From Arthrobacter sp. UM1 (GTDB lineage Bacteria > Actinomycetota > Actinomycetes > Actinomycetales > Micrococcaceae): 64,000 bases of DNA. The stretch spans positions 1 to 64,000 of the forward strand of contig NZ_JACWAB010000004.1 in the NCBI RefSeq assembly GCF_020483305.1. Direction: 5' to 3'. The notes under the pieces are model-generated. The model was not told the DNA's origin. It worked only from the letters and a program-made list of their open reading frames with translations, and searched no databases. The position numbers were made by a program, and so were the translations under genes. Positions 3,842 to 64,000 of the stretch are shown piece by piece. Every line of letters starts with the position of its first letter. Positions within the stretch are counted from its first letter, which is position 1.

Positions 3842-4282
3842 GGCTGCCTCTCTGACGGCGGTTGTGGTGTCCGGGTGTGTGTCGGCGGTCTGGCGGTTCG
3901 GGCCGGGGGCCGGGTGTGGCGGCTTGGTCGGGTGCGTTTCTGTCGCGGTTGCGCGGGTGCGTCGCTGTTGCGGCTGCGCGGGTGCGGTGGCGTTTCGGCT
4001 GCGCGGGTGCGGTGGCATTGCGGGACTGGGTGGCGTCGGCGTCCTTCGGGCCCGAACCGAGTCGAAGTGAACCGATGCGGCTCCGAGCCTTCCAGGCTGA
4101 CGCCTGCTGGCACCCCTCACGCTACTCCGTCCGAGGCCATCCGTCAGGAGTGGTCTGATCTGCACCCGTTTCCGCTCACTCCGCCGCCCTCCCCCGCCTC
4201 GTCTCTTTCCCCTCCCCCTCCTGCCCTGTCCCACTCGCACCCGTTTCCGAGCGCCTCCGCCCGGGCACCCCCGGTTCCGAGC
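3842..4282. repeat. Gene-free, repeat-rich region with GGGTGCG-type motifs
   Basis: No gene is supported. From 3935 to 4020 the unit GGCTGCGCGGGTGCG and variants recur in direct orientation. From 4150 on, the opposite-strand form (GCACCCGTTTCCGAGCGCCTC) appears several times. The section is lower in GC around 4060-4150. It carries the same GGGTGC/GCACCC caps as the palindromes elsewhere in the window. The DUF4375 promoter must lie near 3842-3900, but no clear boxes are seen. Confidence 0.6.
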
Positions 4283-4406
4283 GCCTCTGCGGACCACACC
4301 CGTTTCTGCTCAAAAACCCGCTCGGAAACGGGTGTATTCGCCTGAAACCGGGTGTGGTGGCGAAAACGGGTGTGGAACAAGAGCTGCGGCACGCACGGTC
4401 CGCGTC

Positions 4407-4436
4407 TTGATGGCCCGAACGCAGCCGTTGGATACT
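4407..4436 (+). promoter_or_regulatory. Promoter of 78-aa gene, copy 1
   Basis: TTGATG (4407-4412), an 18-bp spacer and GATACT (4431-4436). The ATG follows 9 nt later without a ribosome-binding site, consistent with a leaderless or nearly leaderless mRNA. Confidence 0.6.
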
Positions 4437-4445
4437 TAGGGCGAC

Positions 4446-4682
4446 ATGTTTGCGCTGAATCTGCCTGAAGTCCTCGCCCTCCTTGTGTGGGCAATCGGCG
4501 TCGGCTTCATGGCGCACCGATTCGCCCAGGCCAGGAACGGCTGGAACCTCGCAGCACTGGTCGTAGCGGTCCTCGTGCCCCTCGCCGGTGCGGCTGCGGC
4601 CGTCGTCGTCGGGTGCCGGAGGGCCATCCGTGCCGTGAGAGCCGCCCGGGACGACGCAAACCGGACAGTGGCACCTCGCTAG
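4446..4682 (+). CDS. Small hypothetical membrane protein, copy 1
   Basis: A 78-aa protein with two predicted membrane helices (residues ~6-24 and ~33-56) separated by the short polar turn HRFAQARNGWN, and a basic C-terminal tail (CRRAIRAVRAARDDANR) likely in the cytoplasm. I do not recognise the family. Coding status is supported by its own promoter, codon use like the genome (G/C in third positions) and perfect conservation of the protein in the second copy. No catalytic motif is visible. Confidence 0.65.
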   Translation: MFALNLPEVLALLVWAIGVGFMAHRFAQARNGWNLAALVVAVLVPLAGAAAAVVVGCRRAIRAVRAARDDANRTVAPR

Positions 4683-4992
4683 CAGGCCCAAGGCAGCCGA
4701 AGCGCGTCTGCACCCGCTTATCGGCTTGACCGCACCCGCTTCCGCTCACGCCCGCCAATCGGAACCCGTTTCCGAGCGCCTCCGCAGAACCGCACCCGAT
4801 GCTGACGTGCCTCCGCCCAGCCACACCCAGTTCCGAGCACCGCCGCCCTGGCACACCCGGTTCCGAGCACCTCTGCGGACCACACCCGTTTCTGCTCAAA
4901 AACCCGCTCGGAAACGGGTGTATTCGCCTGAAACCGGGTGTGGTGGCGAAAACGGGTGTGGAACGAGAGCTGCGGCACGCACGGTCCGCGTC

Positions 4993-5022
4993 TTGATGGC
5001 CCGAACGCAGCCGTTGGATACT
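4993..5022 (+). promoter_or_regulatory. Promoter of 78-aa gene, copy 2
   Basis: Same boxes as copy 1 (TTGATG, 18 bp, GATACT). The bases between the -10 box and the ATG differ slightly (TAGAGCGTC instead of TAGGGCGAC). Confidence 0.6.
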
Positions 5023-5031
5023 TAGAGCGTC

Positions 5032-5268
5032 ATGTTTGCGCTGAATCTGCCTGAAGTCCTCGCCCTCCTTGTGTGGGCAATCGGCGTCGGCTTCATGGCG
5101 CACCGATTCGCCCAGGCCAGGAACGGCTGGAACCTCGCAGCACTGGTCGTAGCGGTCCTCGTGCCCCTCGCCGGTGCGGCTGCGGCCGTCGTCGTCGGGT
5201 GCCGGAGGGCCATCCGTGCCGTGAGAGCCGCCCGGGACGACGCAAACCGGACAGTGGCACCTCGCTAG
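5032..5268 (+). CDS. Small hypothetical membrane protein, copy 2
   Basis: Encodes exactly the same 78 residues as the gene at 4446-4682, in the second unit of the tandem duplication. Two membrane helices and a basic tail are predicted; the function is unknown. Both copies keep their promoter, so both are probably expressed. Identity at the DNA level as well as the protein level means the duplication is young, and by itself says nothing about selection. Confidence 0.65.
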   Translation: MFALNLPEVLALLVWAIGVGFMAHRFAQARNGWNLAALVVAVLVPLAGAAAAVVVGCRRAIRAVRAARDDANRTVAPR

Positions 5269-5525
5269 CAGGCCCAAGGCAGCCGAAGCGCGTCTGCACC
5301 CGCTTTTCGGCTTGACCCGCACCCGCTTCCGCTCACGCCCGCCAATCGGAACCCGTTTCCGAGCGCCTCCGCAGAACCGCACCCGATTCTGACGTGCCTC
5401 CGCCCAGCCGCACCCAGTTCCGAGCACCGCCGCCCTGGCACACCCGGTTCCGAGCACCTCTGCGGACCACACCCGTTCCTGCTCAAAAACCCGCTCGGAA
5501 ACGGGTGTATTCGCCTGAAACCGGG

Positions 5526-16180: not shown

Positions 16181-16204
16181 CGCCGCCCGATACGGCCCGC
16201 CCCC

Positions 16205-16330
16205 GCTTGCGCACCCGGTACCCCCGCTTGCGCACCCGGTACCCCCGCTTGCGCACCCGGTACCCGCGCTTGCACACCCGGTACCCGCGCTTGCGCACCC
16301 GGTACCCGCGCTTGCGCACCCTCTCTTGTC
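16205..16330 (+). repeat. Six 21-bp tandem repeats
   Basis: Units begin with GCTTGCGCACCCGGTACCC at 16205, 16226, 16247, 16268, 16289 and 16310, exactly 21 bp apart. The first units end in CC and later ones in GC. The last unit loses the GGTACCC part and turns directly into the left arm of a long palindrome. There are no spacers, so this is not a CRISPR array. Confidence 0.95.
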
Positions 16331-40424: not shown

Positions 40425-40440
40425 GCCGGCCTCAGCCGGC
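40425..40440 (-). promoter_or_regulatory. Hairpin between TPP aptamer and ecfS start
   Basis: GCCGGC-TGAG-GCCGGC on the minus strand followed by CCCCCTTCC. Its place directly after the aptamer suggests it is the expression platform (terminator-like or sequestering stem). Confidence 0.5.
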
Positions 40441-40449
40441 GAGAAACTC

Positions 40450-40547
40450 GACTCCCTGCCGCCGGTCCTAACCGGATCAGGTTCGAGGGTCTGCTTTCGC
40501 ACTCTCAGCGCCCTGTTCTCAGGCCTTGCGGCCGGCGCTCCCCTGTC
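40450..40547 (-). promoter_or_regulatory. TPP riboswitch (THI element)
   Basis: The minus-strand transcript has the aptamer in order: GACAGGGGAGCGCC at the 5' end, a GGCCGCAAGGCC hairpin, GCGCTGAGAGTG (the conserved TGAGA), GACCCTCGAACCTGATCC, GGTTAGGACCGGCGGCAGGG and GTC closing the first stem. These conserved cores are diagnostic for the TPP aptamer. With TPP bound it represses the downstream ykoE-type ECF operon. Confidence 0.95.
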
Positions 40548-40696
40548 GTTGTCTTGCCGTGCCCCGCACTCGCGGCGCACAGCTGAACAGCCTACCGCAG
40601 ACCGGCCCATCGGCCCCAGAGTCCCCGCTATGCTGGCCGTAGAGCAATCGGGCCCGTCCGAGGGCGCGATCATCCCCAACACCGCAAGGAGTCAGC

Positions 40697-55400: not shown

Positions 55401-55443
55401 TCAGGAGGGGCTGGAGACGCTGTTGCGGTCCTCCTCTCGCCCG

Positions 55444-55473
55444 TTGACGGCCAACTCCCGACCCCGGTATACT
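55444..55473 (+). promoter_or_regulatory. Strong plus-strand promoter upstream of a short hairpin
   Basis: TTGACG (55444-55449), 18-bp spacer, TATACT (55468-55473). The predicted transcription start is near 55480, only a few bases before a terminator. Confidence 0.7.
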
Positions 55474-55485
55474 GAGTGCATTCTG

Positions 55486-55519
55486 CCCCGCCTCCCGCAA
55501 GGGATTGGCGGGGTTTTTT
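55486..55519 (+). terminator. Intrinsic terminator directly after a promoter
   Basis: CCCCGCC+TCCC pairs with GGGA+(TT)+GGCGGGG, closed by a GCAA tetraloop and followed by six T. It begins about 6 nt after the predicted transcription start, so most transcripts would be ~40 nt. It may be an attenuator for the downstream genes or make a tiny RNA. Confidence 0.8.
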
Positions 55520-55534
55520 GTGAGGGGAGTCCTG

Positions 55535-55758
55535 TTGGGCGTGAAGCCAGGTCCCGCCGTCGAGAGCGTGACAGTCCTGATCGACTATGAGAACGTCCAC
55601 CCTCAGCGGGGATGACTTCGCCGAAGCCCGGGACCACACGGACTACACCCGAGGCTGAGTGGGAACAGCTCCCTCAACGGACGATCCTCGGGCTGTCGCT
55701 CCCGTCCGACGCTGTTGCGGTCCGCCCGCGGATCGTGATGTTCTCGGAGCATGACTGA
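55535..55758 (+). other. Possible overlapping mini-ORFs leading to sseB
   Basis: After the terminator, GAGGGGAG lies five bases before a TTG (55535) opening a 26-codon frame that contains [13 protein letters not shown], reminiscent of the N-terminus of NYN/PIN-like nucleases, and stops at 55615. Its last bases overlap an ATG (55612) opening a 48-codon frame that ends at 55758, overlapping the sseB ATG (55751). Both overlaps suit translational coupling. Too short to be proven coding; the first could be the stump of a lost gene. Confidence 0.35.
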
Positions 55759-56311
55759 AAACCTCGGCCAGAACGACGCCCAGAACGAGTCCGCCAGCGA
55801 GGCTCCCACCACCCTCAACCCGCTGGAGGAGGCTCTGGCCAAGGGCCAGACCGGCGAGATGGAGCAGACGGACGTCATCCTGGCGTTCCTCAACTCCAAC
55901 GTCCTCCTCCTCTCCGCCAAGGACCCGGAGCAGGATCCGGAGGCCAACCTCGAGCCCATCGCCCTCGAGAGCCCTGACGGACAGCCCATGATCGCCGTCT
56001 TCTCGGAGATGTCCCGCGTTCCCGCCGAGCTCGGCGAGCAGGCCCCCTACGGCGTCACCGTCCAGGGCGCCACCGTGGTCAACTCGGTCACGGACAACAC
56101 GGGCATCATGCTCAACCCCGGGTTCGAGCTCGGCTTCATGATCGAGCCGTCCGGCGTCCAGATGATCCGCAACGACTTCCGCCCGGCCTCCGAGGTGGAC
56201 GCGATGAACGCGCAGGGCGGACCGGCCTCCCAGGGCGGCCAGGGCCCGGCGGGCACCGGCTCGGACGAGGCGCACCCCGTGCGGCCGACGAACGATCCGG
56301 CCGGCTTCTGA
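55751..56311 (+). CDS. SseB family protein, copy 1
   Basis: A 186-aa cytoplasmic protein with one SseB N-terminal domain (~20-145): NPLEEALAKGQTGEMEQTDVILAFLNSNVLLLS, a strand with PMIAVFSEMSRVP, GVTVQGATVVNSV, and NTGIMLNPGFELGFMIEPSGV. The tail is Gly/Gln/Pro-rich and disordered. SseB-domain proteins have no firm function in actinobacteria. Its stop shares one base with the ATG of the paralogous next gene, so they are co-translated. Confidence 0.85.
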   Translation: MTENLGQNDAQNESASEAPTTLNPLEEALAKGQTGEMEQTDVILAFLNSNVLLLSAKDPEQDPEANLEPIALESPDGQPMIAVFSEMSRVPAELGEQAPYGVTVQGATVVNSVTDNTGIMLNPGFELGFMIEPSGVQMIRNDFRPASEVDAMNAQGGPASQGGQGPAGTGSDEAHPVRPTNDPAGF

Positions 56312-63452: not shown

Positions 63453-63523
63453 GCGGCTATAGCTCAATGGTAGAGCGCCTGCTTCCCAAGCAGGATACGT
63501 CAGTTCGATTCTGTCTAGCCGCT
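63453..63523 (+). tRNA. tRNA-Gly (anticodon CCC)
   Basis: A 71-nt cloverleaf. Acceptor GCGGCTA (63453-63459) pairs with TAGCCGC (63516-63522), discriminator T. D-stem GCTC/GAGC, anticodon stem CCTGC/GCAGG, loop TTCCCAA with anticodon CCC at 63485-63487, T-loop TTCGATT. The T-stem GTCAG/CTGTC has one T-T mismatch (positions 50-64). CCA is not encoded. It reads GGG codons. Confidence 0.95.
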
Positions 63524-63835: not shown

Positions 63836-63894
63836 CTTGCGCACCCTCTGGTGTCAGGATTCCGCCCGAATACTGACACCAGAGGGTGCTCAAG
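63836..63894. repeat. Palindromic element, second copy of 16311 type
   Basis: Imperfect palindrome with the same ends (CTTGCGCACCCTCT ... AGAGGGTGCTCAAG) and CAGGATT-like inner arm as 16311-16369. Three arm bases differ from that copy and are matched by complementary changes in the other arm (CTT/AAG there, GGT/ACC here); two positions are unpaired. Confidence 0.88.
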
Positions 63895-64000
63895 CCCAGG
63901 AACAGGGTGCGCAAGCCTCGCGGACGGACCGCTGAGCCCAGGAACAGGGTGCGCAAGCTCAGCGGACGGACGCACAGTCCGGGAACAGGCTGCTCAGCCC
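63893..64000 (+). repeat. ~44-bp tandem repeats at window end
   Basis: AGCCCAGGAACAGGGTGCGC occurs at 63893 and 63937, each followed by AAGC, a TCGCGG- or TCAGCGG-type stretch and GACGGAC; a degraded third copy (AGTCCGGGAACAGGCTGCTC) follows. The array continues past the window edge. No gene is seen from 63562 to 64000. Confidence 0.8.

Follow-up and report, generated by a model that had tools for sequence, protein, structure and literature searches.

Within a 64,000-nucleotide (nt) stretch of the Arthrobacter sp. UM1 genome (contig NZ_JACWAB010000004.1, hereafter the window), we analyzed a promoter that is followed almost at once by an intrinsic terminator (positions 55444-55519), and we identify this unit, with high confidence, as part of a decayed cassette in which a conserved small RNA precedes a gene encoding an NYN-domain nuclease. 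Comparison with relatives shows the unit to be the intact 5′ element of such a cassette joined to an internally deleted NYN gene, and in the window the solo RNA alone remains of the cassette. Our best explanation of these observations, i.e., a decayed NYN cassette together with an RNA that restrains the nuclease, has as a whole about an even chance of being right.

The unit contains two features.

55444-55473, forward strand: promoter TTGACG-18-TATACT, with the -35 TTGACG at 55444-55449, an 18-nt spacer and the -10 TATACT at 55468-55473.
55480-55519, forward strand: predicted RNA of ~40 nt, with the leader AUUCUG, a hairpin with a bulged UU and a run of six U (U6), from the fold and from our covariance model R1.

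This layout confirms the first-pass annotation, made from the sequence of the window alone, which had read TTGACG-18-TATACT and, ~12 bases on, a GCAA-capped hairpin with six T. The hairpin at 55486-55513 is CCCCGCC-TCCC-GCAA-GGGA-TT-GGCGGGG with T6 at 55514-55519, and the -10 lies 12 nt from the stem, as in most relatives. Transcription would start at ~55480, as predicted from the A found there in 28 of 30 copies linked to the nuclease, and the predicted RNA from there through T6 is 40 nt long, in agreement with the ~40-nt transcript originally claimed. The folding energy of 55480-55520 is -23.9 kcal/mol (z -4.1), which was equalled by 1 of 200 shuffles. TTGACG-18-TATACT is the sole sigma-70-type match across 12 kilobases (kb), where 0.2 are expected; a simple terminator scan over the same 12 kb did not list the window hairpin, with both of its hits located elsewhere. 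Our own scan of 392 kb of the genome, both strands, found 31 terminators with a hairpin and T-run and 19 promoter-like sites; just one pair, that of the window, has a promoter-terminator spacing below 60 nt (~0.05 expected from the counts), and the sole further pair within 150 nt is spaced by 133 nt. Genome-wide, 14 sites match TTGAC-N18/20-TANNNT, and only the window site is followed by a T-run hairpin as judged by eye. Because no second pair occurs within 60 nt, and because only 1 of the 14 pattern sites has a T-run hairpin, the promoter is unlikely to stand next to the terminator by chance.

Downstream of the hairpin, we identified two parts of one gene and a short tail.

55535-55615, forward strand: 5′ end of an NYN-domain gene, 26 codons followed by a stop, with GTG at 55541 aligning with the start of a relative.
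55611-55658, forward strand: 3′ end of the same NYN gene in another frame, its last 15 codons and stop, from similarity to the end of the gene at locus L139.
55663-55699, forward strand: DNA with weak similarity to an ABC-transporter ATPase gene (66% over 116 nt to locus L136, gene type by eye).

These parts lie in an insert (described below) that we searched in 347 genomes of the order. Matches were found in 12 of the 347, the genome of the window included; at three of these loci the same hairpin follows a -10 and an NYN-domain gene starts directly past the T-run, and the remaining matched genomes gave short pieces only. The closest relative, L139, has 71% DNA identity to the window over 125 nt, from the hairpin through the gene start, and a second alignment (73% over 49 nt) covers the 3′ end of its NYN gene, with ~520 base pairs (bp) of that gene missing between the two parts present in the window. 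The first 26 codons are thus followed by the last 15 in another frame, and we therefore class this locus as an intact RNA front joined to a gene lacking its central part. The 26- and 48-amino acid (aa) pieces matched nothing in Pfam, and the remnant, which is too short, did not match PF01936 (NYN domain); a 41-aa query gave matches in 100 of 295 genomes at E up to 1, none of them convincing apart from the window itself. Intact hairpins beside broken NYN frames also occur at four other loci (L161, L166, L140 and L180). The tail of the insert may derive from ABC-transporter ATPase-like DNA, an assignment that is uncertain.

The covariance model R1, built from 14 copies of the element with the window left out, gave the window a score of 32.5 bits, with E values of 1.1e-6 for a search over 430 kb and 6.2e-6 for the genome, where it was the sole hit. 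Of 396 genomes searched in the order, 47 had a hit to R1 (E up to 0.01), and of 396 in the phylum, 15 did (E up to 0.001); this scattered distribution fits mobile cassettes. Many actinobacteria carry this promoter, leader and hairpin ahead of an NYN subfamily, on both chromosomes and plasmids; for example, the element stands before NYN genes on plasmids of Clavibacter, Rhodococcus and Pseudonocardia, and it is present in 6 of 8 plasmid records with an NYN match. Rfam returned only tRNA and TPP for the window at gathering scores and, with E allowed up to 1, no family for six loci with the element, and we found no paper on this RNA in the literature searched, which lacked most subscription papers and preprints. 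Three hairpins in the same phylum (L194, L195 and L197) resemble the element in lower stem and bulge and differ from it in the upper stem, and we saw no NYN gene beside them; at near 31 bits, they are possibly chance matches.

The model gave 88 matches in all, and 80 sites were carried into a count of NYN linkage, leaving out two L138 sites seen again via L133, the opposite-strand L200 and L203, and the core-only L209, L212, L213 and L222. NYN similarity begins 11-57 nt after the element at 27 of the 80 sites, which is a biased rate since part of the model seed was found via NYN genes; the other 53 sites are phage copies, chromosomal orphans and low scorers, the last probably chance matches. 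Among the 20 order-level hits of at least 32 bits that have a locus and played no part in the model or its finding, an NYN gene was identified by profile in 12. The remaining eight comprise L169, where the NYN gene is in a broken frame, L164, which lies at a contig edge, L176, which lies behind an NYN gene with its own weak copy, and five without NYN (L170, L173, L174, L178 and L179). Two further hits of this strength outside the seed have no locus and stand outside the 20 (G442:C1:84519 and G054:C14:182907), and the first of these was found to precede an NYN gene. Starting from the protein, 198 genomes contained 13 full-length NYN relatives (E up to 1e-50), 10 of which have a model hit directly upstream; the other three are two tandem copies in genome G442 with a diverged, sub-threshold version (same lower stem, one-base bulge) and one copy at a contig edge. 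No element accompanies the four weak NYN matches or the one partial match in these 198 genomes.

Some loci carry more than one copy. In G442 (C1, 82812-85195; L248, L251 and L243), three tandem NYN genes each have their own hairpin and -10-like site, and two of the three hairpins have a diverged, seven-pair upper stem. L138 and L140 each contain a pair of consecutive, differing NYN genes, and every one of these genes has an element to itself; both frames of L140 are interrupted. At L176 (1501-1548), a second element lies ~264 nt behind the NYN gene, and an IMG/VR contig (L150, 3164-3554) has two elements in a row. On a plasmid of Mycolicibacterium aubagnense (L252, 690-750), a different long inverted repeat is located directly upstream of an NYN relative.

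The anatomy of the RNA was analyzed in 30 NYN-linked copies, i.e., the 27 above, the window, and two loci placed here by eye because of a contig edge or broken frame (L164 and L169). One hairpin per gene is present at these 30 sites, with the end of the -10 mostly 12 nt before the stem, and a promoter score of at least 8 of 12 at this fixed distance is reached by 16 of the 30 vs 2.3% of shuffles (the scored set excluded orphans under 33 bits and seven phage copies that were near-duplicates). Transcription is expected to begin at position 7, which is A in 28 of 30 copies and is followed by U (28/30), by U or A (30/30), by G, A or C, by C (26/30) and by U (25/30); the leader consensus is U[U/A][G/A]CU (leader counts omitted the same duplicates and orphans below 37 bits). 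The stem then opens with CCCCGCC or a variant that covaries, continues through GUCC-UCCG-GGAC and a bulged U to the closing strand, and is usually followed by a U-run, with the window having a TCCC-GCAA-GGGA upper stem and a UU bulge as its variant. Of all cells, 99.3% are paired, and compensatory changes occur at 10 of the 11 pairs (0 of 500 shuffles); an alignment not fitted to the model is 98.9% paired with compensatory change in 7 of 11. These data bear on a simple alternative, namely that the hairpin is just a strong terminator next to its promoter, either a recurring solution or a scrap of the NYN gene, and that the RNA has no role. A strong stem, stable tetraloops (UCCG, GCAA) and a U-run are what a terminator would have, and the window copy does lie in decayed DNA between repeats; we nevertheless find this improbable, given a sequence-specific leader, a fixed bulge and a covarying stem across several families, and given hairpins that are retained without a U-run.

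The proteins encoded downstream share with NYN/LabA-like nucleases a match to PF01936, found in 16 of 16 aligned members, and five residues are invariant (D15, N18, D117, D142 and D144); such acid residues are expected of PIN/NYN nucleases. A structure model of the protein (pLDDT 90.6) has as its best fold matches VPA0982 (2qip, 18% identity) and the NYN domain of MARF1 (5yaa, 13%), and we know of no RNA linked to either. All 16 members also match PADLOC HEC-09 at E up to 0.01 (best 6.1e-10, with no curated cut-off shown), a candidate defence family without a library description, and the match of the L139 protein spans residues 112-155 only.

Copies of the hairpin without an NYN gene in the stretch examined were identified in Gordonia phages GAL1, Holliday and Birdsong, in Microbacterium phage Footloose and Mycobacterium phage Krypton555, and likewise in an M. 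abscessus prophage and in IMG/VR contigs. The phage contigs were found by a 17-nt core alone (21 nt in the first scan), and their flanks are therefore a fair test. In 25 of the 28 non-identical contig hits, the stem continues beyond the core for at least 4 pairs, and among these 25 the leader T[AT][GA][CT]T stands at the leader position in 17 (background 0.0027 per position), a U-run is present in 16, and NYN in 3. Since leader and hairpin are kept without the promoter, and sometimes without the U-run, the RNA itself seems to be under selection. The first-pass idea of a "tiny regulatory/decoy RNA" thus finds support in kind, with the same leader and hairpin recurring as a conserved RNA, either with an NYN gene or alone in phages.

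We propose that the strong promoter would yield mostly the ~40-nt RNA, with the hairpin doubling as terminator, and that occasional read-through would produce the NYN RNase. The NYN protein would bind the RNA, by its leader and its upper stem with the bulged U, and would thereby be held in check, and loss of the RNA, e.g., when a phage shuts off host transcription, would free the nuclease. Phages and NYN-less chromosomes carrying the RNA alone would be protected from NYN, with their copies acting as decoys. Restraint of the nuclease by an RNA made in excess is, in our analysis, a proposition just short of an even chance. Besides the seed bias noted above, several observations weigh against it. 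A promoter score of at least 8 at the fixed distance is found in only 5 of 30 orphans vs 16 of 30 NYN-linked copies; the phage copies probably lie inside longer transcripts and might serve another purpose. On the NYN tree, leader types cluster, with 2 changes over 23 rows, but physical linkage alone suffices to explain this clustering, which is no proof of recognition. In addition, the NYN plasmid relatives of Mycolicibacterium alvei and M. aubagnense (2 of the 8 records) are without such an element.

The main rival is autoregulated attenuation by NYN, in which the element would be a cis device: the hairpin limits NYN, and NYN itself, a phage or a host factor binds or cuts the leader and so sets the level of read-through. 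Promoter and U-run hairpin do stand directly before the NYN gene at a fixed spacing, with the terminator between promoter and gene, the NYN proteins are RNase-like, and the conserved bulge and leader could fit a protein-binding site. Attenuation fits the phage copies less well, as cis control of NYN leaves orphan phage leader-hairpins, several without a U-run, unexplained, and complementarity between leader and Shine-Dalgarno sequence is no better than at mismatched loci (504 of 1000 shuffles as high). We regard this explanation as rather unlikely.

Restraint by the RNA would resemble the type III toxin-antitoxins ToxIN, CptIN and TenpIN, which, in the accessible portion of a published account, consist of a promoter, a small RNA, a Rho-independent terminator and an RNase gene (PMC5086642). 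The cassette likewise has one promoter, an RNA, a Rho-independent terminator and then an RNase gene, its RNA is conserved by clade, and its phage-borne, RNA-only copies compare with pseudo-ToxI, a known phage mimic of a type III antitoxin RNA (excerpted text of PMC3475682). The two differ, to the detriment of our proposal, in that one hairpin forms both the cassette RNA and its terminator, whereas the type III antitoxin is by definition an RNA of tandem repeats, with a terminator in addition (PMC5086642, same portion), and in that the cassette protein has an NYN/PIN-like fold rather than the ToxN/AbiQ/CptN/TenpN fold. Lacking both the tandem repeats and the ToxN fold, the cassette is therefore described here as one that works like a type III system, not as one that is. 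Modules with an RNA antitoxin do exist outside the ToxN fold, as the available parts of the reports on AbiF-RCd22 and AvcID indicate (PMC12373285, PMC10511110), and these share with the cassette a non-coding RNA upstream of a non-ToxN defence protein. They differ in having an Abi_2 family protein with two ~34-nt motifs, or a deoxycytidylate deaminase, the RNAs being compared by description only.

The window copy lies beside dcd, within the sseB promoter region, in an insert flanked by direct repeats.

55416-55431, no strand: left copy of the exact 16-bp direct repeat GACGCTGTTGCGGTCC (19 nt at 95%), carrying a duplicate of the sseB -35 region.
55432-55707, forward strand: the insert, between the two repeat copies; missing from both G001 and G002 of the same genus.
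55708-55723, no strand: right copy of the 16-bp direct repeat GACGCTGTTGCGGTCC, an exact repeat.
55715-55744, forward strand: native sseB promoter-like block TTGCGG-18-(TGA)TGTTCT, shared by all 3 genomes compared in the genus.
55751-56311, forward strand: sseB-like gene 1 (PF07179), by profile match.

The 292-bp stretch 55416-55707 has a G+C content of 0.64 vs 0.71 for the window. Both other genomes of the genus, G001 and G002, have a single block matching the repeat and no 292-bp insert; dcd leads into sseB with ~100 bp between them in G001, and a different gene, VanY-like by eye, precedes sseB in G002. From the three genomes compared, the direct repeat may have arisen by insertion, or the insert may have been lost from G001 between the repeats. 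Direct repeats around 19 other cassettes are at most 10 nt, within the shuffled range; the 16-bp repeat is thus peculiar to the window, and we dropped a general rule that cassettes insert with direct repeats. As a DNA query, the insert gave no full-length match in 295 genomes of the family apart from the window itself, only short pieces; 33 of the 295 had matches at E up to 0.01, and inspection by eye classed six loci that hit the hairpin part as terminators or coding DNA. A DNA-level search of plasmids and phages gave no match.

Upstream of sseB, all three genomes of the genus contain GTTGC[GA]G-17/18-TGTTCT-5/8-ATG, in the window as TTGCGG at 55715-55720 and TGTTCT at 55739-55744, 6 nt before the ATG at 55751. 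This gene therefore has its own promoter-like block, whose -35 region is duplicated by the repeat, and its mRNA would, on the spacing, be leaderless. The first-pass annotation had suggested a conditional attenuator for the sseB genes, which it saw as having no other clear promoter, and had advised checking conservation upstream of sseB in relatives. The unit does lie on the same strand, ~230 nt upstream of sseB; that it should control these genes is nonetheless very improbable, as the insert and its element are missing in both other genomes of the genus and the conserved block, which contradicts the view that these genes have no other clear promoter, lies after the insert. Scans for sseB relatives by degenerate patterns found none at first and then one contig of the genus from a metagenome-assembled genome and two distant ones. 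The 12-mer CGTGATGTTCTC (window 55734-55745; L083, L093) stands directly before the sseB ATG in all three genomes; it also occurs in G002 (L057/L098), 5 nt ahead of the start codon ATG of a gene judged YraN-like by eye, and could possibly be a common leaderless promoter motif. We also considered that a tRNA-Gly gene had once stood next to dcd and that the unit is what survives of its promoter and terminator; of 29 family loci scanned, 5 have tRNA-Gly(ccc) a short way upstream of dcd, and one more has it at a greater distance. This we rejected as next to impossible, because the insert matches NYN cassettes instead; the window has its tRNA-Gly at 63453 with its own flanks, and G001 also has a tRNA-Gly some kb away.

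Elsewhere in the window, long direct repeats with a 586/587-bp period, in part in three copies, are present at ~4239-5512, and short tandem repeats with 21/42-bp spacing at 16200-16300 and 63893-63960, the latter shortly past the tRNA-Gly gene. A TPP riboswitch at 40436-40554 on the reverse strand scored barely over the gathering threshold.

An odd promoter-terminator pair has thus served as the entry to a compact RNA-nuclease cassette across actinobacterial chromosomes, plasmids and phages, of which we found no description in the libraries searched. Tentatively, and in the knowledge that it could well prove wrong, we suggest that these cassettes may form a new actinobacterial RNA-protein toxin-antitoxin or defence family, in which the hairpin would be both antitoxin and terminator, solo copies in phages and NYN-less chromosomes would be decoys, and the window would hold a solo remnant. 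If the RNA neutralises the nuclease, the cassette would amount to a type III-like system of very small size, for which phages supply natural decoys.
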